Positions 27,587-42,890 of a DNA stretch of 64,000 nucleotides are shown piece after piece. The DNA is from Solitalea lacus (GTDB lineage: Bacteria; Bacteroidota; Bacteroidia; Sphingobacteriales; Sphingobacteriaceae). The position numbers were made by a program, and so were the translations under genes. The stretch is from assembly GCF_022014595.1 (NCBI RefSeq), contig NZ_CP091740.1:4204200-4268199 (forward strand), in the 5' to 3' direction. How positions within the stretch are numbered: position 1 is the first letter of the stretch; each line of letters begins with the position of its first letter. The notes beneath the pieces were generated by a model that was not told where the DNA came from, searched no databases, and was given only the letters and a program-made list of their open reading frames with translations.

Positions 27587-28612
27587 TTATAAATGAGACG
27601 AATCTCTGATCATTAAAGAAATAGGCGTAATAATAGGCTCTGTAACATACTCTACCGTTTCTCCTTTTTTAGTCATTAGCTGTAAAATTACCTCAACTAT
27701 TTTTTCACCTACCAAATCGGGATGTTGTTCAACTGTAGTTATTGCAGGAGATACGATACCTGACCTCGGGTCATTTGAATACCCCACAATTTTAAAATCA
27801 TTTGGAACACTAATACCAAATTCTCTGGCAACCTGCAAAGCGGCGATAGCCGATGTATCATTAGCAGTAAACAACCCATCAGGTATTGATTCCATCTTGA
27901 AGAGTTTATGCACAGATTCAACAGCGTTTTCTAACGTTAACTCATGAAAAAAGACCCACTCCTGCTTATAAGGAATTTTATATTTACGCAGCGCATCAAT
28001 GTAGCCCGCATAACGATCTTTATAGAGATTGCAGGTTAACGGGCCTGAAATATGCGCAATTGATTTACAACCGGAATTTATAAGATGCTCAGTTGCTTCA
28101 AAACCTCCCCGGTAATCATCTCCTTTTATAATTTGGGCAGGATAATAATCAACCGGAACACGGTCGTAAAACACCAGTGGGATTTGTTTACGAGTTAGAA
28201 CATCAAAGTGAGAGAAATCAGTAGATTGCAAGGTCGAGGCTACAATTACGCCATCTACCCTTGAGGCATACAGCGTATTTACCAATTCTTTTTCTAGTTC
28301 AGGAGAATCATTCGATTGGCAGATAATAAGGTTATATCCCTCTTTATGCAGCAAGTTTTGCACGACCGTTAATACCGCCGCATGAAAGTACATCGAAATC
28401 CGGGGAACAATGATCCCCACGGTTTGGCTTCGATTGCTTCTGAGATTAGAAGCCATCGGATTAAGCGTAAAATCAAGCTCAAGAGCCAGTTTCCTCACCT
28501 TCTCCTTCGTTTTATTGCTAATGCGAGGGTTGTCATTTAACGCCCTCGAAACAGTAGAGGGGGAAATTCCCAGTGAAGTGGCTATATCAATTATGGTTCT
28601 GTTTCTACTCAT
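27587..28612 (-). CDS. LacI-family transcriptional regulator of the uronate locus
   Basis: A 341-residue regulator. The DNA-binding domain is at 1-60 (TIIDIATSLGISPSTVSRAL, then the hinge MASNLRSNRS), followed by a periplasmic-binding-protein-like sensor (TVGIIVPRI, DGLFTANDTSAIAAL). It lies at the end of the susC-susD block and divergently from the catabolic genes. The palindromes TGCAAATGTTTGCA at 33497 and 33581 have the form expected for its operators. A uronate catabolite such as 2-keto-3-deoxygluconate is a likely inducer, by analogy with other uronate regulators; nothing in the sequence proves this. Confidence 0.92.
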   Translation of the reverse strand: MSRNRTIIDIATSLGISPSTVSRALNDNPRISNKTKEKVRKLALELDFTLNPMASNLRSNRSQTVGIIVPRISMYFHAAVLTVVQNLLHKEGYNLIICQSNDSPELEKELVNTLYASRVDGVIVASTLQSTDFSHFDVLTRKQIPLVFYDRVPVDYYPAQIIKGDDYRGGFEATEHLINSGCKSIAHISGPLTCNLYKDRYAGYIDALRKYKIPYKQEWVFFHELTLENAVESVHKLFKMESIPDGLFTANDTSAIAALQVAREFGISVPNDFKIVGYSNDPRSGIVSPAITTVEQHPDLVGEKIVEVILQLMTKKGETVEYVTEPIITPISLMIRDSSHL

Positions 28613-28747
28613 TGTATCTATTATTTATTATATATCTTTAAAAGAACCCCTGCCGAACTAACAAATTGCCTGTACGGCAGGGAAGCTTACTTTAAAGTCA
28701 AGTATGATCGAAAGTAATGTTTTCTAATAATTTTTATTAGTTATATC

Positions 28748-30322
28748 CTAGTTATATCCCGGATTCTGAACTAGCTTAGGATTTTTATCCCTTTCGCCTT
28801 GTGGAATTGGCAACAAGTAATATTGATTCAAAAAAACACGATTAGGCTGGGCGGCTACCCTGTCCAAAAAGTTGTCATCCTTCGGACGATAAACAGCCCA
28901 CTGCGCAGTTTCTGCAATACGCCAACGCTTAATATCAAAATAATAATGCCCTTCTAGAGCCATTTCAATCATTCTTTCATGGCGAATAATGGCTCTCATT
29001 TCTGCTTGAGTTTTACCTTGAAGTATCGGAGGCATTGCAACACTTGGTCGCTGACGAACGGCATTAACGGCATCATATACTGTTTGATCAGCCCCCACAA
29101 CTTCATTTTGGGCTTCTGCATACATCAATAAAACATCTCCATAACGCATAAGAATAAGGTTGGTTGGAGTGTCATATGCAAGTCCAACATTCTCATCTGT
29201 AACAGCTTTTCTTACCAAATAGCCCGTGCGGATATTATTGGTTTTGAAATCGTACCTAATATCTTTAAAAAGAATATTCCTGTAACTTGCACCCGGCCGG
29301 ATGATTGTAAAATCCATGCGCGGATCTCGGTTATCATACGGCTTTGCAGCATTAAATAAAGGTGATTGCGCTGCTGGAAGGCCATCTTTCATTTCATAAT
29401 TATCTACCAGATAAACGGTAGGTTGAATATTCGTCCAACCATTGCTCGAACTTTCCCTATTACCCAAGTATTTCTCAAATCTATTACCCTCACCGGTTCC
29501 TACTACATTATTGAACTGGATATCAAATATTACTTCCGAGTTATTCTCATACTTATAATCAAAAAGGTTAAAATAGTGGTCGTATAACTTGTAGTTTTTT
29601 GAATCGATAACCTCTTTGAAAGTTGCGGCAGCAGCAGCGAAATTACCCTCATATAACTGAACCTTTCCTTTAAGAGTACGAGCAGCATACTTGGTAGCGC
29701 GACCAAGATCGCTTTTTGTATAGGAAACCGGCAAATCGGCATAAGCTTCATCGAGGTCTTTGTATATCTGTGCTCGAACATCTGCAACAGGAGTTCGTTC
29801 TACCGTTGGAGTAGTTGCTTCTTCCAGTCCCAATGTTTTAGTGATCAACGGAACATCACCAAAGAAATTTATCAGATAAAAATAATTGAATGCCCTAAGG
29901 AATTTGGCTTCAGCCAGTAAGCGCTTTTTCGAGACTTCATCCATATTAATACCCGGAATTTTTTCAAGACACAAGTTGGCGCGATATACCCCTCGATACA
30001 ATCCTCTCCAACGCATAGCCGCAAAGCCAGAGGTAGCATTCGTTCCCGGGATACAAAACTCTGCCATCCCCCCCGGATTGTCACAAGGAGCCGCTATTGG
30101 AGAGATGATATCTGTCATGTTATAAAGTCCAAATGAATCTTCTCCTTGTAAAGCATCATAAACCGCATTTACCCCGGCTGTAGCATCCGCCCCATTTTTC
30201 CAGAAATTGCTTTCCTGCACCTGCGAATAGGACGTGGTATCTAAGAAATCCTTATTACAGGCGCTCAGTCCGAGTACTGAAGAAATGAATATATATGTCG
30301 ATATTTTATTGAATAATCTCAT
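28748..30322 (-). CDS. SusD/RagB-family surface glycan-binding lipoprotein
   Basis: A 524-residue lipoprotein: signal with lipobox LSAC (cysteine near residue 22), N-terminal TPR-like SusD domain (TSYSQVQESNFWKN), and the C-terminal RagB/SusD domain (RYGDVLLMYAEAQNEV, then RRIAETAQW-like end region). A TTG two codons upstream also lies in frame; the ATG at 30322 is preferred. SusD caps the SusC channel and binds the glycan. It follows susC by 20 bp. Confidence 0.95.
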   Translation of the reverse strand: MRLFNKISTYIFISSVLGLSACNKDFLDTTSYSQVQESNFWKNGADATAGVNAVYDALQGEDSFGLYNMTDIISPIAAPCDNPGGMAEFCIPGTNATSGFAAMRWRGLYRGVYRANLCLEKIPGINMDEVSKKRLLAEAKFLRAFNYFYLINFFGDVPLITKTLGLEEATTPTVERTPVADVRAQIYKDLDEAYADLPVSYTKSDLGRATKYAARTLKGKVQLYEGNFAAAAATFKEVIDSKNYKLYDHYFNLFDYKYENNSEVIFDIQFNNVVGTGEGNRFEKYLGNRESSSNGWTNIQPTVYLVDNYEMKDGLPAAQSPLFNAAKPYDNRDPRMDFTIIRPGASYRNILFKDIRYDFKTNNIRTGYLVRKAVTDENVGLAYDTPTNLILMRYGDVLLMYAEAQNEVVGADQTVYDAVNAVRQRPSVAMPPILQGKTQAEMRAIIRHERMIEMALEGHYYFDIKRWRIAETAQWAVYRPKDDNFLDRVAAQPNRVFLNQYYLLPIPQGERDKNPKLVQNPGYN

Positions 30323-30342
30323 AATCAAAAAATTCGTTTGCG

Positions 30343-33300
30343 TTAAAAACTGGTATTAATTCCCATGCTAAACACTTTAACATTCGGATGTTCGATATTG
30401 GTATTAGTAGAAGTACGTTCAGGGTCAAATCCATCAAAATTGGTAATGGTAAACAGATTTTGTGCATTTATATATACTTTTAAATCGCTCAGTTTTATTT
30501 TTTGAACGAATTTAGAAGGTATATTATAAGTCAACTGTACATTCTTTAATCGCAGGAAGGATGCATCTTGGACCCAAAAACTTGAATTCATGTTATTATC
30601 AGTGAATTTACTGGTCGTAAGTCGAGGTAATTCAGCGTTGGCATTATCCGGAGTCCAACGATCCATCCATTTTGCATTTATACGACGGGCAGTAGATCCT
30701 TCGGCCTGCCAGGTGTAGAAGTTAGAATTCAGGTAAGCATCCTGCTTATATACTCCGTTAAAGATTGTAGAAAGTTCAAAACCGTATGCTTTTACACTTA
30801 AATTTAACCCAAAGGTATATTTAGGAAGAACGTTTCCAATTACCTTTCTGTCATCACTTGTAATTTTATTATCCCCATTCACATCCGTATAGCGAATATC
30901 TCCGGGAGAAGTACTTACTTTAGAGTTACCACTGATCACCTTTTGCACAGGGGCAGCCATCACTTCATCAGCTGATCTGAAAATACCTGCCGCCTGATAC
31001 CCAAAAATAGAGCTGATTGGGTATCCTTCCTGAATGATAAATAAACTACCTGCGCGGATATTCTCGCCACGGAACTTAGAAACCTCATTATCAACATGAG
31101 TAATATTACCACCAATCGAAAGCTCCACCTTGCCAATCTTATCCGAATATTGCGTTGACAATTCCCATCCTTTGTTGGTAACTTCAGCCAGGTTTACTAC
31201 CGGCCCGCCTAAGCCACCTATGTAATCCGGAACATCTAAAGTATAAAGGATACCATTTGTTATTTTGTTAAAATAGTTTGCTTCAACATGTAGTTTAGAT
31301 TTAAAGAAGTCCATATCCATTCCTACGTTTTTAATGGTTGTGGATTCCCAACTGATACCCTGATTTACAAGGGCCGTAGGAGCAATACCGCCAGCTACTG
31401 AACCTCCAAAATTGTAGTTAACCCCTGAAGCATTGTATAATGACTGATAAGCATAATCATTACCGTTTGTATAATTATTTGGGTTGGTATTATTATTCCC
31501 CAGCTTACCCCATGATCCTCTGAGTTTTATATTATCCACATAATTGCGTAAACCCGCAGCAAATTTTTCTTCTGTAATTCTCCAAGCGGCAGAAAAAGAA
31601 GGGAAATATCCCCAACGATTACCAGGTGCAAAGCGGGAAGAGCCATCGGCCCGAAGGTTAGCTTCTAACAGGTATCTTCCTTTATAATCGTAGTTTAATC
31701 TTCCAAAAAATGATTTCATCGCCCATTCTGTAGCAGCTCCCTCAGTTTTAATATTATCCAGAGCAGTAGCTAATACCGGTGTTTCAGGGCTAAAAATCTT
31801 ACTCCCTGAACCTCCAAAATAATCTCTTTTATAAAACTCCTGACTATATCCCGCTAACGCACTCAAAGCATGTGCGTTTTTCAGAGTAACACTGTAATTA
31901 AGCGTTGGAAATAAGGTTAATGTGTAGTTTTTATCAAAACTGTTGAATAATGAATTTCCAGGGGTAGTAACAGGTTGTATATTTTTACCGGTTCTGAAAT
32001 TCCATAAATCGGCTTGCATTTGAAAGGTTGAGCTATTGTTTTGTCCATACCGAATACCTGCATTACCTTTCAAGAAGAGGTCTTTTAACAATTCAACTTG
32101 AACATACCCGATACCTGTTAAATCGAGTTTCTGATTCTGACTTTTTTCCAGTTCCAAGCGAGCAAGCGCATTATTGGTTTGTGCGTTAGCCCCATCCTGA
32201 ACCGCTCCGTAGCGACCATCCGGATGTTTAGGATAAATGTCCGGACTACTCATAAAAGTAAATAAGCTACTGATATCAGCAGGTCCTTTCTGTAAGCCTG
32301 TATTTATTGCAAAGTTGGTACCTGTTTTAATCCGATCGCTTATTTTTCCATCTATGTTCATGCGCAGCCCGTACCTTTTGTATGAAGTACTACTTATCAT
32401 CCCCTGGTTTTGCAGGTAATTGAGGGAAACATTATAAGTAATATTCTCTGTACCCCCGTTTACTGAAAGATTATGTTCTTGCATAGAACCATTCTTGAAA
32501 AGAAAACTAAACCAATCAGTATTAGGCCATCGAATAGGATCAATTGCTGAGCTATCTCTCCAACTTTGGATGAATTCAGGTTTATACACAATAGCATCTC
32601 CCATATTAATTCGTGACTCATTAATCAACCCCATTACTGTAGGAAAATCAGTAATCATGTTTAATGAATTGGGCATTTTCTGAATCCCGCTGTAAACACT
32701 ATAGCTCAGACGTGGTTTTCCGGTTTTCCCTTTCTTAGTAGTAACCAAAATAACCCCATTGGCCGCCCTTGAACCATATATGGAAGCTGCCGCTGCGTCT
32801 TTTAAAACACTTATGTTTTCCACATCGTTAGGATTGATATTATTAATCGGCGCTTCAATTCCGTCCACCAACACTAAAGGAGAGGCACTATTGAGGGTAC
32901 CCGTTCCCATAATCCGTATGGATACACTTTCATTGCCCGGCTGACCAGAAGACTGGTTTACATACACGCCAGATGCAGTTCCTGAAAGTGCCGAAGCCAG
33001 GTTAGTCAATGGTCTGTTTTGAATTTGTTTTGCGGAAACAGTTGCTACGGATCCGGTAAGATTAACTTTCTTTTGGGCGCCATAACCCACTACTATTACC
33101 TCCTCAAGTGCTTTCGCACTTTCAGTAAGTATTACATTGATCATTACGGCTTGGCCAACAGTTACTTCCTTGTTATTAAAACCTAACATGCTAAACTCAA
33201 GTAGATCTCCTACTTGGGCCTCTAACTGATAAGCTCCTGAACCATCAGTAGCCGTAGCTTTTGTCTGGTTTTTAATACTTACCGTTACACCCGCCAGTGG

Positions 33301-33417
33301 CAGACCTGATGGGTCACTAACCGTGCCCTTGATTTTTTTGAGTTGTGCCCAACTATGATGAGGGGCGAAGAGCAGCAGGCATAAAAGCCCTAATAGTGTA
33401 AACTTTTTTACTTTCAT
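30343..33417 (-). CDS. SusC/RagA TonB-linked outer-membrane receptor
   Basis: A full-length protein of 1024 residues. Signal peptide ending SWAQ (residue 25), regulatory-like domain at about 28-105 (IKGTVSDPSGLPLAGVTVSI), TonB-box-like EEVIVVGYG, plug (about 115-225, SVLKDAAAASIYGSRAANGV), and a barrel ending in phenylalanine. It imports oligosaccharides with SusD. Its start is 80 bp from a palindromic operator candidate that overlaps the -33 element of a plausible promoter. The substrate, by its partners, is a uronic-acid glycan. Confidence 0.97.
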   Translation of the reverse strand: MKVKKFTLLGLLCLLLFAPHHSWAQLKKIKGTVSDPSGLPLAGVTVSIKNQTKATATDGSGAYQLEAQVGDLLEFSMLGFNNKEVTVGQAVMINVILTESAKALEEVIVVGYGAQKKVNLTGSVATVSAKQIQNRPLTNLASALSGTASGVYVNQSSGQPGNESVSIRIMGTGTLNSASPLVLVDGIEAPINNINPNDVENISVLKDAAAASIYGSRAANGVILVTTKKGKTGKPRLSYSVYSGIQKMPNSLNMITDFPTVMGLINESRINMGDAIVYKPEFIQSWRDSSAIDPIRWPNTDWFSFLFKNGSMQEHNLSVNGGTENITYNVSLNYLQNQGMISSTSYKRYGLRMNIDGKISDRIKTGTNFAINTGLQKGPADISSLFTFMSSPDIYPKHPDGRYGAVQDGANAQTNNALARLELEKSQNQKLDLTGIGYVQVELLKDLFLKGNAGIRYGQNNSSTFQMQADLWNFRTGKNIQPVTTPGNSLFNSFDKNYTLTLFPTLNYSVTLKNAHALSALAGYSQEFYKRDYFGGSGSKIFSPETPVLATALDNIKTEGAATEWAMKSFFGRLNYDYKGRYLLEANLRADGSSRFAPGNRWGYFPSFSAAWRITEEKFAAGLRNYVDNIKLRGSWGKLGNNNTNPNNYTNGNDYAYQSLYNASGVNYNFGGSVAGGIAPTALVNQGISWESTTIKNVGMDMDFFKSKLHVEANYFNKITNGILYTLDVPDYIGGLGGPVVNLAEVTNKGWELSTQYSDKIGKVELSIGGNITHVDNEVSKFRGENIRAGSLFIIQEGYPISSIFGYQAAGIFRSADEVMAAPVQKVISGNSKVSTSPGDIRYTDVNGDNKITSDDRKVIGNVLPKYTFGLNLSVKAYGFELSTIFNGVYKQDAYLNSNFYTWQAEGSTARRINAKWMDRWTPDNANAELPRLTTSKFTDNNMNSSFWVQDASFLRLKNVQLTYNIPSKFVQKIKLSDLKVYINAQNLFTITNFDGFDPERTSTNTNIEHPNVKVFSMGINTSF

Positions 33418-33470: not shown

Positions 33471-33502
33471 CAATAATATAGGGCAGAAATCAAAAATGCA
33501 AA
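33471..33502 (-). promoter_or_regulatory. Candidate susC promoter
   Basis: On the minus strand TTTG (33502-33499) is followed after 20 bp by TATTATTG (33478-33471), one base from TAnnTTTG. The TTTG lies inside the palindrome at 33497-33510, so a bound repressor would block the promoter. Confidence 0.5.
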
Positions 33503-33510
33503 TGTTTGCA
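33497..33510. promoter_or_regulatory. Palindromic LacI-type operator candidate 1
   Basis: TGCAAATGTTTGCA, a perfect inverted repeat around a central TG, with flanks A and CAAA identical to those of copy 2. It is 80 bp upstream of susC. Confidence 0.7.
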
Positions 33511-33580
33511 CAAATAAATTAAATCAAAATCTTTATTTTTTAGATTTTTAACTAAATACAAACTTTTTTAAAATTTTTTA

Positions 33581-33594
33581 TGCAAATGTTTGCA
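33581..33594. promoter_or_regulatory. Palindromic LacI-type operator candidate 2
   Basis: TGCAAATGTTTGCA, identical to copy 1 including flanking bases, exactly 84 bp away (eight turns of B-DNA), and 110 bp upstream of kdgK. Confidence 0.7.
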
Positions 33595-33703
33595 CAAAAA
33601 TTTAGATTAGCCCCATGAAGCGACAGGAGTGCTTCACGTTATCGAACGCTCCTGCTCGTAAATAATTGAATGACTATTTAGACTTGAGTTACAATAAGAA
33701 AAT

Positions 33704-34717
33704 ATGATTACAACTTTTGGTGAACCTTTGCTCAGACTGTCTCCTCATATCTCAAAAGGTGAGGCAGGAATATATGTTGGAGGTAGCGAGGCAAATGTTT
33801 GCATTGCCTTGGGAACTTGGGGAAATCAGGTGGGGTACATCAGCAAACTACCCAGTAATGAATTAGGACATTCAATACATGATTATTTAATTCATAACAA
33901 TGTAAATACTGATCATGTTTATCAGGAAGGTGAAAGGGTTGGCATTTACTTCTTGATGCAAGGGGCCGATTTACAACATTCTTCGGTTATTTATGATCGA
34001 AACCATTCGGCCTTTAGTCAATGGAAGCCTGGAGAAACCGATTGGTTGACAATATTGAAAGGGAGTACGTGGTTTCATTGGAGTGCAATTACACCGGCAT
34101 TAAATCCAGAATTGGCTCAGGTATGCCATGAAGCATTAAAAGCAGCAAAAGAATTAGGTTTATTTATTTCAGTAGATCTTAATTATCGATCAAAATTATG
34201 GCAATATGGCAAAAAGCCTATCGACGTAATGCCCCAACTCGTTCAGTTTTGCGACTTAATCATGGGAAATATTTGGGCCGCTAATACCATGCTAGGAACT
34301 CCGTTGATAAATGAAGAGTTTAATAACGCTAACAAGATGGAGTACAATAAGGCTGCTGTTGAAGCAGCAGATAAGGTGTTCAAATGTTTTCCAAATTGTA
34401 CCCAAACGGCCTTTACGTTCCGCTTCTCTGATGCTGCTGAGCATACAAGTTTGTTTGCAACGTTGAATACAAAAACGAATCATTATTTATCCAACACCTA
34501 TATAAGTCACAACGTTATCGATCGGGTTGGTAGTGGAGATGCTTTTATGGCTGGACTAATTTACGGCTTCTCAAATAAGTGGGAGGAACAACAAATCTTG
34601 GAATTCGCAGTGGCTTCAGCTTATTGCAAATGGCATATTTTGGGCGACCATACCACTGCAAGCGTAAAGCAGATTATGGATACTTCAGCTAAATTTCATG
34701 AAACATACTCAAGATAA
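33704..34717 (+). CDS. kdgK: 2-keto-3-deoxygluconate kinase (PfkB family)
   Basis: A 337-residue sugar kinase. N-terminal ITTFGEPLLRLSP, the substrate-pocket motif GGSEANVCIALGTWG near 26-40, and the C-terminal catalytic signature DRVGSGDAFMAGLIYG (catalytic Asp near 285). In this locus it phosphorylates KDG to KDPG. First gene of the plus-strand catabolic operon; it overlaps eda by 20 bp. The codons for EANVC contain a 13/14 match to the operator palindrome. Confidence 0.92.
   Translation: MITTFGEPLLRLSPHISKGEAGIYVGGSEANVCIALGTWGNQVGYISKLPSNELGHSIHDYLIHNNVNTDHVYQEGERVGIYFLMQGADLQHSSVIYDRNHSAFSQWKPGETDWLTILKGSTWFHWSAITPALNPELAQVCHEALKAAKELGLFISVDLNYRSKLWQYGKKPIDVMPQLVQFCDLIMGNIWAANTMLGTPLINEEFNNANKMEYNKAAVEAADKVFKCFPNCTQTAFTFRFSDAAEHTSLFATLNTKTNHYLSNTYISHNVIDRVGSGDAFMAGLIYGFSNKWEEQQILEFAVASAYCKWHILGDHTTASVKQIMDTSAKFHETYSR
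33790..33803. promoter_or_regulatory. Operator-like palindrome inside kdgK
   Basis: GGCAAATGTTTGCA matches 13 of 14 bases of the two intergenic palindromes. It lies within codons for Glu-Ala-Asn-Val-Cys. Its centre is 209 bp (about 20 helical turns) from copy 2. Confidence 0.4.
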
Positions 34718-35354
34718 AATTCTTCGTTTACTGGTTGAAGATGGCATGCTTCCTCTGTTTTATCATGATGATTTAGAGGTGTGCAAATCAGTAATTAAAG
34801 CCTGTTATGAGGGTGGAGCACGGTTGTTTGAGTTCACACATAGAGGTGTAAATGCTAAAGAACATTTTGCTGCTTTGCGTTTATGGACTCGAGAGGTAAT
34901 GCCGGAACTATTATTAGGAGTTGGAACAGTGAAAAACGCGGATACGGCCAGATTTTACGCAAATGCAGACGCCGATTTTATCGTTTGTCCAATCGTTGAT
35001 GAGGATACTTCATCCGTTTGTTCGGAACATGAGCTCCTTTGGATTCCGGGCTGTATGACGCCAACAGAAATTGCCAGAGCCGAAAAGTTGGGCGCAAAGG
35101 TTGTAAAACTTTTCCCTGGAGAGCTTTTGGGTAATCAGTTTATAATATCGATTCGTCCATTATTTCCTGACCTTTCTTTTATAGTTACTGGCGGAGTAAC
35201 TACAGAAAAAGAGAATTTACGTGGATGGATAAATGCCGGAGCGAAAGCTGTTGGAATGGGTTCAAAATTAATGGCAACAGAATGGGTTGATAATAAGCAA
35301 TTCATTAACATAACCAATTCTGTAAAAGAAGCACTGGAAATATTGAAACAATAA
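34698..35354 (+). CDS. eda: KDPG aldolase
   Basis: A 218-residue class I aldolase splitting KDPG to pyruvate and glyceraldehyde-3-phosphate. The family motifs are GVGTVKNADTARFYANADAD and AKVVKLFPGE, where the lysine forms the Schiff base, and the phosphate-binding VTGGVTTEKENLRGWINAGA. Translationally linked to kdgK by a 20-bp overlap. The enzyme closes the uronate pathway. Confidence 0.95.
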   Translation: MKHTQDKILRLLVEDGMLPLFYHDDLEVCKSVIKACYEGGARLFEFTHRGVNAKEHFAALRLWTREVMPELLLGVGTVKNADTARFYANADADFIVCPIVDEDTSSVCSEHELLWIPGCMTPTEIARAEKLGAKVVKLFPGELLGNQFIISIRPLFPDLSFIVTGGVTTEKENLRGWINAGAKAVGMGSKLMATEWVDNKQFINITNSVKEALEILKQ

Positions 35355-35403: not shown

Positions 35404-36732
35404 ATGAATCAATCAATTGTTAATCAATATCGTTGGCGAATTGCAGGTTTACTGTTTTTTGCAACAACTATAAATTATCTGGATAGGCAGGTAATTGGCC
35501 TATTGAAACCTGTATTGGAAAAGGAGTTCCAGTGGACAGAAACCAATTATGCAAATATTGTAATGGCATTTACTGCTATGTATGCTATTGGCTTGCTTGG
35601 ATTTGGTAGGCTTGTTGATAAAATCGGCAGTAAGCTGGGTTACTTCATTTCAGTTGCTGCTTGGAGCATAGCCGCTATTGGGCATGCATTTGTAAAGACA
35701 ACGTTTGGTTTCGGTTTTTTCAGAGCTGCATTGGGTTTGGCCGAGGCCGGTAATTTTCCAGCCGCCATTAAATCCGTTACCGAATGGTTCCCGAAAAAGG
35801 AACGGGCACTTGCAACTGGTATTTTCAATTCAGGAGCTAATATTGGCGTAATCGTGGCTCAAGCATTTGTTCCTCTGATAACTTTCCATTACGGTTGGCA
35901 GCAAGCCTTCGTCTGGACAGGAGCAACTGGTATTATTTGGTTGATTCTTTGGTGGAAATATTACGAAATTCCTACTCGACATAAAAAGATCTCTCAAACA
36001 GAATATGATTACATCCATTGCGATGCAGATCTTGTCTCTGAAACTAAACATGATTCATCCGCCTCGATATCTTGGTTTCAATTGCTTAAAGTAAGACAAA
36101 CCTGGGCGTTTGTGACCGGTAAATTTTTAACAGATCCAATTTGGTGGTTTTTCCTTTTCTGGCTTCCATCTTTCTTTGTTAGCAAATTCAGCCTTAATTT
36201 AAAAAGTCTCGGATTACCAGGCATTGCGGTCTACACAGCTGCATGCATAGGGAGTATTGGAGGAGGTTGGTTATCGGGACACCTTATTAAAAAAGGGTGG
36301 CCTGTTTTTAAAGCCAGGAAAACAGCAATGTTAAGCTTTGCTTTTATGGTTGTGCCAATTTTCTTTATTCAATACGTAAACAATCTTTGGATTGCAGTTG
36401 GATTAATCAGCCTTGCTGCGGCAGCACACCAGGCTTGGTCGGCAAATATTTTTACCACAGCATCCGATATGTTCCCTAAACAGGCTATAAGCTCTGTAGT
36501 AGGTATTGGCGGGATGGCAGGTGCAGTAGGAGGCATCCTCTTTCCTTTATTTATCGGTTTTCTTTTAGATCATTATAAAGCAATCGGGAATGTAATGGCA
36601 GGATACAACATAATCTTCTCAATTTGCGGTAGCGCCTACTTGCTGGCTTGGATTATTATGCACTTTCTTGTAGCAAAGCTACAACCTGTAAGATTTAATG
36701 AGGACTTAACCCCTACAGAAATAGTTAAATAA
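35404..36732 (+). CDS. MFS transporter, ExuT-like hexuronate family
   Basis: A 442-residue protein with twelve predicted helices. N-terminal TTINYLDRQVIGLLKPVLEK and GLAEAGNFPAAIKSVTEWFP are signatures of the anion:cation symporter family that includes ExuT and GudP. Its position between eda and the lyase suggests inner-membrane uptake of the monomeric (possibly unsaturated or 4-deoxy) uronate made in the periplasm. The stop codon abuts the ATG of the next gene. Confidence 0.92.
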   Translation: MNQSIVNQYRWRIAGLLFFATTINYLDRQVIGLLKPVLEKEFQWTETNYANIVMAFTAMYAIGLLGFGRLVDKIGSKLGYFISVAAWSIAAIGHAFVKTTFGFGFFRAALGLAEAGNFPAAIKSVTEWFPKKERALATGIFNSGANIGVIVAQAFVPLITFHYGWQQAFVWTGATGIIWLILWWKYYEIPTRHKKISQTEYDYIHCDADLVSETKHDSSASISWFQLLKVRQTWAFVTGKFLTDPIWWFFLFWLPSFFVSKFSLNLKSLGLPGIAVYTAACIGSIGGGWLSGHLIKKGWPVFKARKTAMLSFAFMVVPIFFIQYVNNLWIAVGLISLAAAAHQAWSANIFTTASDMFPKQAISSVVGIGGMAGAVGGILFPLFIGFLLDHYKAIGNVMAGYNIIFSICGSAYLLAWIIMHFLVAKLQPVRFNEDLTPTEIVK

Positions 36733-38706
36733 ATGAAAAAGCTAATCAACTCATTTTATTTGGGTATTTGTAGCTGTATTGCTGTTACCTGCACTACGCA
36801 ACCTGTCATAGGGCAAGAAATACCGCAAAGGAATTACCTGGCAAATGCTCTGCGAGGGCAACCGGCAGTATATTATTTTCAGGATTTGGGAAAATGGCGT
36901 TCCCAAAAGAAACAGGAAGTTATTGCAGCTTTCCAATCATTATCAAACTCTGAAAAGCAGCAGATTATTTCTGCTGCGGATAAATTGATGGAATATAACT
37001 GGCCTTCTCTTAAAGCGATTCAGTTTTTGGAATATAAAACAATCGGTAATCGATCAAACTATGAGGCCTCTCTTTCTGAACGTAGAAATAAACTAAGCAC
37101 GTTAATAGCTGCTGAATTGGTAGAAGGGAAAGGAAAATATTTACCACAAATAACGAATGGCTTATGGCTGTTACTGGAAGAAAGCACCTGGGTGCTTCCG
37201 GCGCATATGAGTCTGCAAAAGGCAGGTGTTGGCTTGGCCGATCCGCAAGAACCCATTGTAGATCTTACAGCTGGTGAAACATCTGCTTTAGTGAGTTGGG
37301 TCCATTTGCTCTTGCAGCCACAACTTAATCAAATTTCCCCTGAACTGTGCAAACGTATTCGCTTTGAGTTGGATCGACGGATCGTTCAACCTTATTTACA
37401 ACATAATGATTTCTGGTGGATGGGGTTTGGTAAACGCATGGTAAACAACTGGAACATTTGGATCAACAGGAATCTCTTGCTTACAACTTTGCTTATGGTG
37501 GATGATAGTTCAGACCGTAGTAAAATGCTTGAAAAATTATTGCTAAGCGCCGATAAATTCATCAATGGTTATCCTAATGATGGCGGTTGCGATGAAGGAC
37601 CTACTTATTGGGGACACGCTGGAGGGAAACTCATTGAGTTTATCACCTTACTTTCCGATGCTTCTTATGGAAAAATAAATTTTTCAGATAAGTCATTGAT
37701 CCATAACATTGGATCTTACATTTATAAAATGCATATCGATAGTAACCGGATGGTGAATTTTGCTGATGCAAAAGCCTACAATATTCCTCATCCAGACAAT
37801 GTATATGCTTATGGGAAATTATTTAACGACTCAACATTGATGCAGTTTGGAGCCTGGCTATATCGACTACAAAATGCGGATGGAGAAAGACACACACACG
37901 AATTTTTCAGTGAATTTGTGAATGAATTGGAATACAGGCAGGAACTCTTATCCACTACTCCAAAAGCTCCTTTTCCGCAAGAAAGCTGGCTGCCAAACCT
38001 TCAGGTACTTGCCCTGCGTAGTAAAAAGGGGGCTTCCAAAGGATTATTTTTTGCTGCTCAAGGAGGACACAATAATGAGAGCCATAACCACAACGACGTT
38101 GGAAACTTCGTTTTATACGTTGATGGAAAGCCCGCTATTGTAGATGCCGGGGTTGGAACCTATACCGCCAAAACCTTCAGCGACGAACGGTATACACTTT
38201 GGAACATGCAGTCACAATGGCATAACTGCCCAACTATAAATGGTGTAATGCAGAAAGAAGGAAAAATGTTCAAAGCCACGGAAGTTCATTTTCAATCAAC
38301 CTCCTTCCAAAAAACATTGAGCATGGACATCGCTTCAGCATATCCTTCGGATGCGGAGGTGAATAAATATCAACGCAGTTTTATTTTCGAACCTTCTAAA
38401 CACAAACTGGAGTTAAAAGAAGTTTATTCAATGAAAACGGTTAAAGCTCCGTTGCAACTGCATTTCATGACCTGTTTAGCAACTTCTTCATCAAAAAATG
38501 GAGAGCTGATATTAGTTGATAGTAATGGAAAAGCCAAATTAAAATTGAAATATAATCCAGGAGTGTTCAATCTGAAAGAAGATTCAAAAGAGCTCGACGA
38601 TCCGCGCTTGAGCAAAGTTTGGGGTTCACAATTGAAACGAATTACACTCGAAGTTAAACATCAAAATAGATCAGGTAACCATAGTATAATTTTCACGCAG
38701 CTTTAA
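36733..38706 (+). CDS. Heparinase II/III-like polysaccharide lyase
   Basis: A 657-residue protein. Signal peptide ending near VIGQ. An alpha/alpha toroid fold (about 40-400; WWMGFGKRMVNNWNIWINRN, GCDEGPTYWGHAG) is followed by the heparinase II/III beta-sheet domain (about 430-657; HNNESHNHNDVGNFVLYVDG, RYTLWNMQSQWHNCP). The His/Asn/Tyr-rich segments form the active site in relatives. It breaks uronic-acid glycans by beta-elimination, producing 4,5-unsaturated ends, which the GH88 enzyme next door removes. Exact lyase family and glycan are not assignable by eye; heparinoid, hyaluronan-like or bacterial exopolysaccharide are possible. No sulfatase is nearby, which argues for an unsulfated substrate. 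Confidence 0.88.
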   Translation: MKKLINSFYLGICSCIAVTCTTQPVIGQEIPQRNYLANALRGQPAVYYFQDLGKWRSQKKQEVIAAFQSLSNSEKQQIISAADKLMEYNWPSLKAIQFLEYKTIGNRSNYEASLSERRNKLSTLIAAELVEGKGKYLPQITNGLWLLLEESTWVLPAHMSLQKAGVGLADPQEPIVDLTAGETSALVSWVHLLLQPQLNQISPELCKRIRFELDRRIVQPYLQHNDFWWMGFGKRMVNNWNIWINRNLLLTTLLMVDDSSDRSKMLEKLLLSADKFINGYPNDGGCDEGPTYWGHAGGKLIEFITLLSDASYGKINFSDKSLIHNIGSYIYKMHIDSNRMVNFADAKAYNIPHPDNVYAYGKLFNDSTLMQFGAWLYRLQNADGERHTHEFFSEFVNELEYRQELLSTTPKAPFPQESWLPNLQVLALRSKKGASKGLFFAAQGGHNNESHNHNDVGNFVLYVDGKPAIVDAGVGTYTAKTFSDERYTLWNMQSQWHNCPTINGVMQKEGKMFKATEVHFQSTSFQKTLSMDIASAYPSDAEVNKYQRSFIFEPSKHKLELKEVYSMKTVKAPLQLHFMTCLATSSSKNGELILVDSNGKAKLKLKYNPGVFNLKEDSKELDDPRLSKVWGSQLKRITLEVKHQNRSGNHSIIFTQL

Positions 38707-38723
38707 TGACACTATTATAACTC

Positions 38724-39953
38724 ATGAAACTATCCAAACAACTATTCAAAGGCTTAGTGTGTGCAGGCTTAATTTTAAGTGGCACAGCGAACGCACAAAA
38801 TGCTCCAAAAGAGCAAATGAAGAAATTAATTGATGCGAACTTAACCTTTGCAGCTCAGCAATATAAAGTCTTGGCACAAAACGTTCCGGCAAGTGTGATG
38901 CCTAAAACGTATAATGCGAAAGATAATAAAGTGATTACTAGTGATACTCAATGGTGGTGCAGTGGTTTTTACCCTGGAACACTTCTTTATATTTATGAAT
39001 ACACAAAAGATCCTTCTATTCTGCAGGAAGCTAAACAACGTTTAGCAATTCTGGAAAAAGAAAAGCATTTTACGGGCAATCATGACCTGGGTTTTATGAT
39101 GTTTTGCAGTTTCGGCAATGCTTATCGATTGTTTGGTGTTCCGGAATATAAAACTATTCTTGATACTTCAGCTGCTTCACTCTCTACACGTTTCCGTCCT
39201 TCTATTTCAGCCATTCAATCATGGGATAAAAGCAAAAACTTTAACTGTCCGGTTATCATTGACAATATGATGAACCTCGAATTATTGTGCTGGGTAAGTG
39301 ATAACGGCGGAGATCCGAAGTATAAAAATATAGCCATAACACATGCCAATACCACGCTGAAGAATCACTTTAGACCTGATTACAGTTCTTACCATGTGTT
39401 GGATTATGATTTAAATACCGGCAAAGTGCTAAAGAAAGTGACCTGGCAAGGCGCTGCAGATTCATCTCCATGGAGCCGCGGACAAGGATGGGGATTATAC
39501 GGATATACCTTGATGTATCGCTTCACCAAAGATCAAGCTTATCTTAATCAGGCAAGACGCATTGCACAATTTATCCTGAAGCATCCAAATCTTCCGGCCG
39601 ATATGATTCCTTACTGGGATTTTAATGCACCTGGTATACCTAATACCTACAGAGATGCCTCAGCAGGTGCACTTATAGCTTCTGCCTTATTAGAATTAGG
39701 TCAATATGTAAGTAATAAAGAAAGAAAACAGTTTGTTGGCGCTGCTGAGAAAATGCTGCTATCCCTTTCTAGTGATACTTACAGAGCAAAACCTGGTACA
39801 AATGGTGGATTCATATTAATGCACAGCACTGGGGCTCTTCCATTTAAAAGTGAAGTGGATGTTCCTTTAACCTATGCAGACTATTATTTCATTGAAGCGC
39901 TGCTTCGTTATAAAAAATGGTATCTGGCAGATACATTAACTACTAAAAATTAA
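38724..39953 (+). CDS. GH88 unsaturated glucuronyl hydrolase
   Basis: A 409-residue periplasmic enzyme (signal MKLSKQLFKGLVCAGLILSG, cleaved near ANA). The two key aspartates of unsaturated glucuronyl hydrolases are in NHDLGFMMF and IIDNMMNLELLCW; SRGQGWGLYGYTL and YRDASAGALIASAL are family stretches. It frees the 4,5-unsaturated uronate from lyase products, which opens to 5-keto-4-deoxyuronate, the KduI substrate. Seventeen bp follow the lyase gene. Confidence 0.95.
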   Translation: MKLSKQLFKGLVCAGLILSGTANAQNAPKEQMKKLIDANLTFAAQQYKVLAQNVPASVMPKTYNAKDNKVITSDTQWWCSGFYPGTLLYIYEYTKDPSILQEAKQRLAILEKEKHFTGNHDLGFMMFCSFGNAYRLFGVPEYKTILDTSAASLSTRFRPSISAIQSWDKSKNFNCPVIIDNMMNLELLCWVSDNGGDPKYKNIAITHANTTLKNHFRPDYSSYHVLDYDLNTGKVLKKVTWQGAADSSPWSRGQGWGLYGYTLMYRFTKDQAYLNQARRIAQFILKHPNLPADMIPYWDFNAPGIPNTYRDASAGALIASALLELGQYVSNKERKQFVGAAEKMLLSLSSDTYRAKPGTNGGFILMHSTGALPFKSEVDVPLTYADYYFIEALLRYKKWYLADTLTTKN

Positions 39954-40110: not shown

Positions 40111-40953
40111 ATGCAGAATTATTTTGAAAGTCGCTATGCGCTGGGGCCGGAAGAAGTAAAAGAAATGAACACAACGCAGTTGCGCGATAAGTTTTTGATT
40201 GAAAATATTTTTGAAATTGACAGCATACGAATGACGCTCTCACATTACGATCGTTACATTGCCGGTGGCGTAATGCCAGTTAATCAATCGGTAACTCTAT
40301 CTAATCCGGATAGTTTAAAAGCAGGGTATTTTCTTGAAAGGAGAGAGTTGGGAATTATTAACGTTGGAGGAAAAGGTACTGTTGTGGCTGATGGTGTAGC
40401 CTATGAATTAGAATATAAAGAGGCTTTGTACATCGGACAAGGCACTAAAGAAGTTATTTTCTCGTCGTCCAACCCTCAACAACCTGCAAAGTTTTATATC
40501 AATTCAGCTCCGGCGCACCAAACCTTTCCAACTAAAAAAGTTTCGCGAAAGGATGCAGAAGTAGTTGAATTAGGAAGTACGGCAACTTCTAATCATCGTG
40601 TTATTAACAAGCTGATTGTTAACAGTGTATTACCTACCTGTCAGTTGCAAATGGGCATGACGGAGTTAAAATCGGGTAGCGTGTGGAACACCATGCCTGC
40701 ACATGTACACGATCGTCGTATGGAGGTGTATTTTTATTTTGAAGTTCCTGAAAATCAGTCCGTATGTCACTTTATGGGACAGACTGATGAAACCAGACAC
40801 ATTTGGATGCAAAATGAACAAGCTGTAATTTCTCCGAATTGGTCAATTCATTCAGGCGCAGGCACTTCTAATTATACTTTCATTTGGGGTATGGCCGGCG
40901 AAAATTTAGATTATGGGGATATGGATCACTGTTCAATCACTGATTTAAGATAA
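40111..40953 (+). CDS. kduI: 5-keto-4-deoxyuronate isomerase
   Basis: A 280-residue cupin enzyme that converts 5-keto-4-deoxyuronate to 2,5-diketo-3-deoxygluconate. The metal-binding residues appear in PAHVHDRRMEVYFYFEVPE (two His and one Glu), and the C-terminal signature is SIHSGAGTSNYTFIWGMAGE with the final DMDH. Cytosolic. It starts 13 bp after the DUF2264 remnant and runs into DUF4861 after 3 bp. Confidence 0.97.
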   Translation: MQNYFESRYALGPEEVKEMNTTQLRDKFLIENIFEIDSIRMTLSHYDRYIAGGVMPVNQSVTLSNPDSLKAGYFLERRELGIINVGGKGTVVADGVAYELEYKEALYIGQGTKEVIFSSSNPQQPAKFYINSAPAHQTFPTKKVSRKDAEVVELGSTATSNHRVINKLIVNSVLPTCQLQMGMTELKSGSVWNTMPAHVHDRRMEVYFYFEVPENQSVCHFMGQTDETRHIWMQNEQAVISPNWSIHSGAGTSNYTFIWGMAGENLDYGDMDHCSITDLR

Positions 40954-40956
40954 GCT

Positions 40957-42126
40957 ATGATAAAATTAGTTAAACCATTACTGTTGATAGTCGGCCTGTT
41001 GACAATACAAAAAGTGAATGCTCAGGTTAACACATTAAATGAAATAAAGATCAGCAACAAAAGTAATCTTGCTTTTGAGGAAGCTATTGTTGAAATCCCT
41101 TGGGGATTGATAGTACAAAAATGGCCCAAAATAGATACTTCAAATTTTAAAGTTATTGCCGTTAATCAGAAGAAAGAACTTCCGTTTCAACTTGAGCATA
41201 GAGGGGAAAAACAAATCAAAAAATTATTGGTCAGGGTCAGTATTCCTGCCAATAGCAATCTTCTTATCTCTTTGCAAAAAGGAAAGGCTGAAAAGATTAA
41301 TTATCTCACTTATGCGAGGTATGTTCCCGAAAGAAAAGATGATTTTGCTTGGGAAAACGATCGTGGGGCATTCCGAATGTATGGGAAAGCACTGGAGGAC
41401 ACCAAGGAAAATGCCTATGGTTTAGACGTTTGGACCAAGAGCACTGACCGACTTGTACTTAATGAGCGTTATAAAAACGGAACCTATCACACTGACCATG
41501 GCGACGGTTTGGATTATTATCATGTTGGTTTTTCTTTAGGCGCCGGCAATATTGTTCCTTTTGTGAACGACACACTATGGTATTCAAAAAATTACCGTCG
41601 TTTTGAAATATTGGATAATGGTCCGTTGCGTAGTACATTTCGTTTGTATTACGATGAATGGTCTGTAGCAGGAAAACCTGTAAAAGTTATTAAAACCATC
41701 AGTCTTGATGCGGGCTCGCAATTAAACCGAATGGAAATCAGCTATGATTTTAATGGTGATAATTTGCCTGTGGCTGTTGGCATCATTAAACGCCCGGAAC
41801 CAGGAACTATCTTACTTGATGAAAAGAAGGCCATTATGGGCTACTGGGAGCCACAGCATGGAAACGATGGTATAATAGGCGTTGGAAGTGTGATCCCTGC
41901 CTCTGTTCAGGTTATGAAGGTAGATAAGCAGCAATTACTTTCCATTGGTAAAGCAAGTGCCAATCAACCTTATATCTACTATACAGGTGCGGCTTGGAAT
42001 AAAGCGGGAAAAATTACCACCAGCAATGACTGGTTTCAATATTTGCAAGATTTTGCCACCAAGCTGGAGCACCCTTTAGAAATAAGCAGTGTTGCTTTAA
42101 CCAAAAACACCCAAAAACTAAAATGA
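40957..42126 (+). CDS. DUF4861 secreted protein
   Basis: A 389-residue protein with a signal peptide (MIKLVKPLLLIVGLLTIQKV, cleaved near NAQ). It has DUF4861 features: DFAWENDRGAFRMYG, YHTDHGDGLDYYHVGFSLGA and YRRFEILDNGPLRSTFRLYY, a beta-rich fold reminiscent of sugar-binding or epimerase-like sandwiches. Function unproven. Its place between kduI and kduD and its ATGA overlap with kduD indicate a role in periplasmic processing of the uronate glycan. Confidence 0.8.
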   Translation: MIKLVKPLLLIVGLLTIQKVNAQVNTLNEIKISNKSNLAFEEAIVEIPWGLIVQKWPKIDTSNFKVIAVNQKKELPFQLEHRGEKQIKKLLVRVSIPANSNLLISLQKGKAEKINYLTYARYVPERKDDFAWENDRGAFRMYGKALEDTKENAYGLDVWTKSTDRLVLNERYKNGTYHTDHGDGLDYYHVGFSLGAGNIVPFVNDTLWYSKNYRRFEILDNGPLRSTFRLYYDEWSVAGKPVKVIKTISLDAGSQLNRMEISYDFNGDNLPVAVGIIKRPEPGTILLDEKKAIMGYWEPQHGNDGIIGVGSVIPASVQVMKVDKQQLLSIGKASANQPYIYYTGAAWNKAGKITTSNDWFQYLQDFATKLEHPLEISSVALTKNTQKLK

Positions 42127-42890
42127 ACGTATTTAATCAATTTAGCCTTAAGGGAAAAATAGCGCTTGTAACAGGCTGTAAACGAGGGATAGGAAAAGCT
42201 ATGGCAGAAGGCCTGGCCGAAGCAGGAGCTGATATAATTGGCGTGTCAGCTTCTCTTGAGCCAAACAGTGAAGTGCAAAGATCAGTAGAGGCTTTGGGAA
42301 GAAAGTTCTATACTTACCAATGTGATTTTTCTAATCGTGATCAATTATATGCATTTATCGCTCAGGTGAAAAATGATTTTCCTTCAATCGATATTTTGAT
42401 AAATAATGCAGGAAATATTCTGCGCAAACCGATAGCCGAACATCCGGATGAGTATTGGGATGAGATTGTTGCCATCAACCAAACGGCTCAGTTTATATTA
42501 ACTCGTGAGATCGGGAAAGAAATGATTGCAAAAGGGAGTGGAAAAATCATCTTTACAGCTTCCCTTTTAACCTTTCAGGGAGGAATCAATGTGCCGGGAT
42601 ATGCGGCGAGTAAAGGCGCAGTTGGCTCGTTGGTGAAAGCTTTTGCCAACGAATGGGCAAGCAAAGGAGTAAATGTAAATGCAATTGCGCCAGGCTACAT
42701 TTCAACCGATAACACTACAGCTTTGCGTGCCGACGAGAAGCGCAGTCGCTCAATTCTTGAGCGTATTCCTGCTAATCGATGGGGTGAACCAGAAGATTTT
42801 AAAGGACCTGTCGTGTTTTTATGTTCAGGTGCTGCCAATTATATTCACGGAACCATTTTAACAGTGGATGGAGGCTGGATGGGAAGGTAA
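42123..42890 (+). CDS. kduD: 2-dehydro-3-deoxy-D-gluconate 5-dehydrogenase
   Basis: A 255-residue short-chain dehydrogenase reducing 2,5-diketo-3-deoxygluconate to KDG. The nucleotide-binding motif TGCKRGIG is near 19-26, NNAGN near 88, the catalytic YAASK near 158-162, and the family end VDGGWMGR. Overlaps the previous gene by ATGA. Its product feeds KdgK. Last gene of the operon; an inverted repeat follows. Confidence 0.96.
   Translation: MNVFNQFSLKGKIALVTGCKRGIGKAMAEGLAEAGADIIGVSASLEPNSEVQRSVEALGRKFYTYQCDFSNRDQLYAFIAQVKNDFPSIDILINNAGNILRKPIAEHPDEYWDEIVAINQTAQFILTREIGKEMIAKGSGKIIFTASLLTFQGGINVPGYAASKGAVGSLVKAFANEWASKGVNVNAIAPGYISTDNTTALRADEKRSRSILERIPANRWGEPEDFKGPVVFLCSGAANYIHGTILTVDGGWMGR

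Follow-up and report, generated by a model that had tools for sequence, protein, structure and literature searches.

Which protein reads a pair of identical palindromes between the divergent gene rows of a uronate locus, and do these palindromes control both rows? The question arises in the window analysed here, i.e. the whole stretch of 64,000 nucleotides from Solitalea lacus. On its minus strand a susC-like TonB-dependent transporter gene (30343–33417; named from its sequence and its place before susD) is followed by susD (28748–30328) and, third in the row, by the gene of a LacI-family regulator of 341 aa (27587–28612). The plus strand carries kdgK (33704–34717), which encodes a PfkB-type kinase, likely a 2-keto-3-deoxygluconate kinase (NCBIfam matches below cut-off), and genes for a KDPG aldolase (34698–35354), an MFS transporter (35404–36732; best NCBIfam match a D-galactonate transporter, below cut-off), a heparinase II/III-like protein (36733–38706), a GH88-type hydrolase (38724–39953), a KduI/IolB family protein that is likely a 5-keto-4-deoxyuronate isomerase (40111–40953), a BT3233-family polysaccharide utilization protein (40957–42126) and a KduD-type short-chain dehydrogenase (42123–42890; named via its pairing with KduI in relatives). 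By this content the locus looks like one for the import and degradation of a polymer that yields unsaturated uronates, i.e. for import and catabolism of polymer-derived uronates. The susC/kdgK layout was absent from all mapped loci of relatives. Other KdgK proteins among the matches listed were at most 48% identical to that of the window, and in the class search made alongside the KdgK comparison only the own genome passed E ≤ 1e-95.

Two identical palindromes in the susC–kdgK gap

The palindrome TGCAAATGTTTGCA, a predicted LacI-type operator, occurs at 33497–33510 before susC (O1) and again, unchanged, at 33581–33594 on the kdgK side (O2). The two starts are 84 bp apart, just as the initial annotation had placed them, and both copies lie within the 286-bp gap between the divergent genes susC (minus strand) and kdgK (plus strand). 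Its further claim of identical flanks holds over a short distance only: the identical block around each copy is the 19-bp ATGCAAATGTTTGCACAAA (33496–33514 and 33580–33598), so that the flanks match for one base on the left and four on the right, and not further out. On both strands of the genome, one contig of 4,402,230 bp, exact TGCAAATGTTTGCA was found as O1 and O2 only; the reversed control pattern had no exact copy in these 4.40 Mb. When up to two mismatches were allowed, the genome gave 81 matches versus 39 for the reversed control. The loose motif is thus enriched only about twofold, and since this enrichment is small, it is the exact pair alone that is striking. Within the window the same tolerance gave five strand-hits at three places against 1.59 expected, a number reached by two of 100 shuffles.

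TGCAAATGTTTGCA is an even palindrome of 14 bp with perfect 6 + 6 arms around a TG centre. Even palindromes in promoter regions are expected of LacI-family operators, and O1 and O2 are such palindromes in a candidate promoter region; the CG centre that is also expected is missing. Among the regulators of this family with even palindromes, 1173 of 1251 have a CG centre, 49 another central pair and 29 a degenerate one (PMC4052901, in extract), so CG is typical and not required. A TG/CA centre is also present in loci L089 and L102, which are near-copies of each other.

We scanned 1,190,996 bases (the window plus 58 loci of more than 10 kb) for 6 + 6 inverted repeats, with at least four G/C in the arms, that recur within 250 bp. 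Only four places were found, namely the window, L089, L102 and L192, in a sample that is biased because most of the 58 loci had been chosen for a nearby lacI. The G/C filter also explains why the pair in locus L196, described below, is absent from this list. In L089, L102 and L192 the repeats occupy the gap between lacI and susC; in the window they occupy the susC/kdgK gap, and lacI is 5 kb off.

The regulator and the palindromes beside related genes

The protein encoded at 27587–28612 has the N-terminal helix-turn-helix and the periplasmic-binding-like sensor domain of the LacI family (PF00356, PF13377 and PF00532, all above cut-off), and its best matches among solved structures are repressors of the LacI/CcpA/PurR type. 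Relatives at E ≤ 1e-90 were detected in 29 of 301 genomes of the family, own included. Linkage to KDG and uronate pathway genes across genomes, which marks KdgR-type regulators of Bacteroidota, was seen here as well: of the 30 non-own loci that this search gave, 17 have KduI and KduD at most about 6 kb from lacI. At class level 11 of 395 genomes besides the own had a match at E ≤ 1e-75, with at most 48% identity.

We then compared 33 related lacI genes, whose products are 47–60% identical to the window protein and one of which is a paralogue in the same genome. The core TGAAAACGTTTKCA was present within about 180 bp upstream of 14 of them, as TGAAAACGTTTTCA in 12 and as TGAAAACGTTTGCA in two, and four had a palindrome of the TGCAA/TGGAA type within 400 bp upstream. 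The other 15 of the 33 have neither type in the 400 bp upstream. Such a palindrome is likewise absent from the 400 bp upstream of the window's own lacI, and the tree group of the window, 29 rows in all, includes 14 with none upstream of lacI; in one of these 14, L099, TGTAAACGTTTGCA stands before KduI instead. In the stretches around the 12 TGAAAACGTTTTCA loci (7 to 21 kb), two other palindromes alone passed the same filter. In genus g13, TGAAAACGTTTTCA at lacI is the sole exact copy in nine of ten genomes, and the tenth (G169) has two further exact copies. The single TGAAAACGTTTTCA in the window's own genome lies inside a coding frame of 390 aa and was taken as a chance match. Taken together, the comparison supports the LacI-type operator reading of TGCAAATGTTTGCA and makes the LacI protein of the locus its likely regulator, as had been predicted.

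In the tree all 12 TGAAAACGTTTTCA rows fall into a single clade (100/99). The group that contains this clade (96/88) has the window row at its base, a placement that is unsure since the row is a long branch, and the TGCAA/TGGAA-type group lies outside (98/97). Named Pedobacter rows cluster with the relatives of the window, which points to Sphingobacteriaceae as its family. The operators thus form a graded series along the regulator tree, from the TGCAA type through TGCAAATGTTTGCA and TGAAAACGTTTGCA to TGAAAACGTTTTCA, which may be used to study how specificity changes in the LacI family. In several rows Ser at window residue 20, in the recognition helix, accompanies TGCAA half-sites and Ala accompanies TGAAAA; this rule fails for L070, L089 and L102 and is a lead only.

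No shared palindrome was found when lacI genes from genera g4 and g15 were searched; lacI lies close behind another frame in the g15 loci and in several g4 loci. A separate operator type was seen in another LacI clade (L082, L084, L085, L090 and L093; 35–38% identical to the window protein), where CGCAAAGGTTTGCG or its reverse complement, with one variant in L090, lies near lacI and susC-like genes.

Promoter geometry

The Bacteroides promoter consensus has TTTG near -33 and TAnnTTTG at -7. In the susC direction (minus strand) a candidate -33 TTTG lies inside O1 at 33499–33502, and the candidate -7 element TATTATTG at 33471–33478 is 18 bp beyond O1. This pair scores 9 of 10; since 91 of 500 Markov-resampled sequences reached at least 9, the promoter scan was rejected as stand-alone evidence. 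In the other direction (plus strand) a weak candidate -7 element of kdgK, TAGATTAG at 33603–33610, lies just beyond O2 and scores 8 of 10, which is not significant.

The initial annotation had noted that O1 overlaps the TTTG before susC, and this overlap gains weight from a spacing that is common to relatives. Of the 14 core sites, 10, among them O1, have a -7-like box (5 or 6 of 6 matches) 17–19 bp past the operator, a distance at which the operator covers the -33 region. The core sites with no -7 box at this spacing are L086, L095, L035 and L034; the near-copies L074, L076 and L102, which were kept outside the core test, score 6, 6 and 6. For the TGAAAA group, the part of the operator arm that falls at -33 is TTTT or TTTC, not TTTG. 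The spacing is absent for O2 in both directions, and among 21 further site-directions, three of them the window's own other directions, only L099 reached at least 5 at 17–19 bp. None of 2000 shuffles reached the observed sum in any offset window. This figure overstates the significance, because the scoring (boxes ending in TTTG or TTGC) was fixed after the loci had been viewed, the shuffles preserve base composition alone, the core loci include several related ones, and offsets 0–2 scored 60 versus 68 at 17–19, owing to the conservation of bases next to the operator. The shared operator to -7 spacing is thus strong comparative evidence for the predicted promoter block, not a formal probability.

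Motif sites away from lacI genes

That one repressor would control both import and catabolic genes was also part of the initial annotation. We examined 12 regions in which the motif occurs at a distance from lacI. Six of these sites fall within predicted frames, the other six do not. The in-frame sites, which were set aside, are those of L170, L171, L172 and L174 and two that lie close to a frame start, L164 in a susC-like frame and L169 in another. In G169 one copy was found 57 bp before a GH88 gene whose product is 70% identical to that of the window (L165). Two others precede susC-like genes, one at 885 bp with no intervening frame called (L163), the other with a frame of 155 aa in between (L167), and a further one precedes a gene whose product has a crystallin-type domain (L166); the L164 copy, also in G169, is 152 bp inside the called start of its frame. 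In G283 the distance from a copy to the susC-like gene behind it is 74 bp (L168). Genome G072 has TGAAAACGTTTGCA 34 bp before an MFS gene (L173 9400–9413) that is 41% identical to the window's and adjoins a glucuronate isomerase gene; its lacI relative has no such site upstream. The susC-like matches in these regions are 24–31% identical. Although half of the 12 sites are in frame, the copies of G169 before GH88 and near susC-like genes fit the predicted joint control of import and catabolism.

Such control had further been set apart from the hybrid two-component type. No hybrid two-component sensor was detected among the 16 window proteins scanned by Pfam, which agrees with the claim for this locus. 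As a general contrast it was overstated, since the sites in L164, L167 and L168 adjoin genes with hybrid two-component architecture and predicted LacI-family uronate regulators of Bacteroides are in print (PMC3878776 and PMC4052901, both in extract). Among the relatives there are cases of a susC gap shared by a LacI-type motif and a hybrid two-component gene.

Paired sites and a third copy

A scan for double sites in the 301 family genomes gave three, the own included. The other two belong to genus g16 (L089 and L102), where TGCAAATGTTTGCA occurs twice, 75 bp apart, between susC and a lacI whose product is 34–35% identical to the window protein. Pairs with other sequences were seen as well. 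In G678, which belongs to another family, two identical copies of TTCAATCGATTGAA lie 158 bp apart between a divergent kdgK-aldolase row and lacI (41%; L196 9339–9510). In G625, TACAAACGTTTGCA and TGCAAACGTTTGCA lie 137 bp apart beside lacI (39%; L189), in G581 the gap between susC and lacI (43%) contains two copies of TGGGAACATTCCCA at a distance of 20 bp, and L101 has a pair 131 bp apart. Two or more sites are present in roughly 20% of the operons under LacI-family control, where spacings peak at 13, 22 and 32 bp, and under 1% of the family's sites lie in coding regions (PMC4052901, in extract).

A third candidate, O3, absent from the initial annotation, is GGCAAATGTTTGCA at 33790–33803, which has one mismatch, lies 209 bp from O2 and covers EANVC codons inside the kdgK frame. 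The Cys was found in only one (L132) of the 33 distinct further KdgK homologues compared, the other 32 carrying Ala, Ser or Gly at this position; the comparison had 34 rows, with one gene entered twice. Given the residues, the probability of the O3 codon choice is about 0.04 (codon use from 21 window genes). O3 may have a regulatory role.

Control of the locus and competing readings

The computed features, i.e. two sites with no further exact copy in the genome, the genes around them and the similar operators with shared -7 spacing beside related lacI genes, point to O1 and O2 as operators bound by the LacI-family repressor whose gene is third in the susC-susD-lacI row, and we consider this reading quite probable. 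The protein would bind both sites and act by repression rather than activation. In the absence of inducer, a repressor dimer on O1 would cover the -33 region of the susC promoter and keep import off, and through the shared susC-susD-lacI row, if co-transcribed, the same block would silence lacI itself. A dimer on O2 would most likely limit the divergent kdgK-aldolase-transporter-lyase-GH88-KduI-KduD row from a putative kdgK promoter at O2. Release is expected from a breakdown intermediate, i.e. KDG, 5-keto-4-deoxyuronate or a near relative.

The pair may instead serve susC only, as main and auxiliary operator, with the kdgK promoter unregulated or separately regulated. The shared -7 spacing, found for O1 in the susC direction and for O2 in neither, favours this, as does the weakness of the kdgK promoter candidate. 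In relatives, however, lacI has the operator in front of it and GH88, KduI and KduD genes behind it, which makes control of catabolic genes look typical, and we regard a pair confined to susC as unlikely while granting it some weight. The binding protein could also be another LacI-family member of the same genome, alone or with the local one, e.g. the 48%-identical paralogue encoded at genome position 3355929–3356858. Palindromes near this paralogue (L070 9031–9067 and 10429–10442) comprise TGCAATCGATTGCA before its own gene and the different palindromes TGCAAACGTTTGCG and TGTAATCGATTACA, 23 bp apart, before a susC-like gene, which suggests a half-site close to TGCAAA. But the local lacI shares its gene row with one predicted target of the two and follows it there, and the relatives of this lacI occur with the same pathway genes, which leaves the paralogue an improbable choice. 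The twofold enrichment of the loose motif is what a chance repeat or mobile-element remnant with no regulatory role could account for; two exact copies in one gap, none in the rest of the genome, and similar sites beside related lacI genes make this hardly credible.

The 84-bp spacing had also been read as the sign of a looped tetramer. The C-terminal tail of full-length LacI carries tetramerisation. When the window protein was aligned to LacI residues 5–314, the alignment ended at residue 314 of 360 in LacI, with 46 residues left, and at residue 321 of 341 in the window protein, with 20 left, so that the tail, and with it the C-terminal helix required of a looping tetramer, is absent. A looped tetramer is therefore not supported, and a distance of 8.0 turns is in itself no proof of a loop. 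Repressor dimers might still cooperate by looping between O1 and O2, with O3 as third operator, on the model of the lac operon. With 10.5 bp to the helical turn, O1–O2 and O2–O3 correspond to 8.0 and 19.9 turns, and the L196 and L189 pairs, the former identical and the latter not, are near whole turns too. The missing tail speaks against such cooperation, as do the L101 pair (12.5 turns) and the L089/L102 pair (7.1 turns); given the varied spacings in other loci, phasing is suggestive at best. O3, moreover, overlaps a conserved coding motif, and L132, from another KdgK clade, also has Cys there. Looping by dimers is thus doubtful, though worth keeping in mind. A bolder version would have the tail-less dimer govern the whole uronate locus through three phased operators (at the susC -33 region, 84 bp off, and in kdgK) by tetramerisation-free looping, with the kdgK copy costing an unusual cysteine and the half-site changing stepwise from TGCAA to TGAAAA among relatives; we hold this to be decidedly improbable.

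Relation to known regulators

Local repression of a uronate polymer locus in Bacteroidota has a parallel in AusR of Zobellia galactanivorans, a local repressor of an alginate locus, which differs in belonging to the GntR family. E. coli LacI uses several palindromic operators, one of them in a gene, and blocks its promoter sterically. The window resembles it in its several palindromes, the possible in-gene copy and the predicted promoter block, and differs in the missing C-terminal tail of its regulator; the in-gene lacZ site is named in PMC4052901 (in extract).

Closer in function are KdgR, UxaR, UxuR and UxmR, LacI-family uronate regulators predicted in Bacteroides thetaiotaomicron (PMC3878776, in extract); LacI-family uronate regulators of Bacteroides also appear as predictions in the extract of PMC4052901. 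They share with the window the family, a palindromic operator, uronate and KDG genes and a local regulon. The window differs in its two copies within a 286-bp gap that divides susCD-lacI from the catabolic row and in the TG centre of its operator TGCAAATGTTTGCA, and it is likened to them by family and gene linkage. ManR and AraR of B. thetaiotaomicron, predicted to control SusC/SusD and catabolic genes, the latter together with a hybrid two-component system, likewise place import and cytoplasmic catabolism under one sugar regulator, but are of the GntR and NrtR families and serve other sugars (PMC3878776, in extract).

The arrangement is real and adds one more case to a known type of gene control, as LacI-type uronate regulators have been predicted before in Bacteroides and paired sites are common in the LacI family. 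For the uronate loci of this Bacteroidota family it puts forward a specific operator and its regulator, both predicted. Judged by title and abstract start, none of the literature matches listed, mostly non-subscription, concerned this regulator in Sphingobacteriaceae; the TGAAAACGTTTTCA string was matched in one paper, on Streptococcus.

Between 27400 and 43000 no Rfam family reached its gathering score. A possible hairpin at 33620–33659 (plus strand), in what may be the kdgK leader, is not significant (z -1.21; 25 of 200 shuffles fold as well). A GC-rich hairpin between susD and lacI at 28648–28682 (minus strand; z -2.10; 6 of 200 shuffles fold as well) is a possible attenuator and, being on the coding strand, possibly reduces read-through into lacI.
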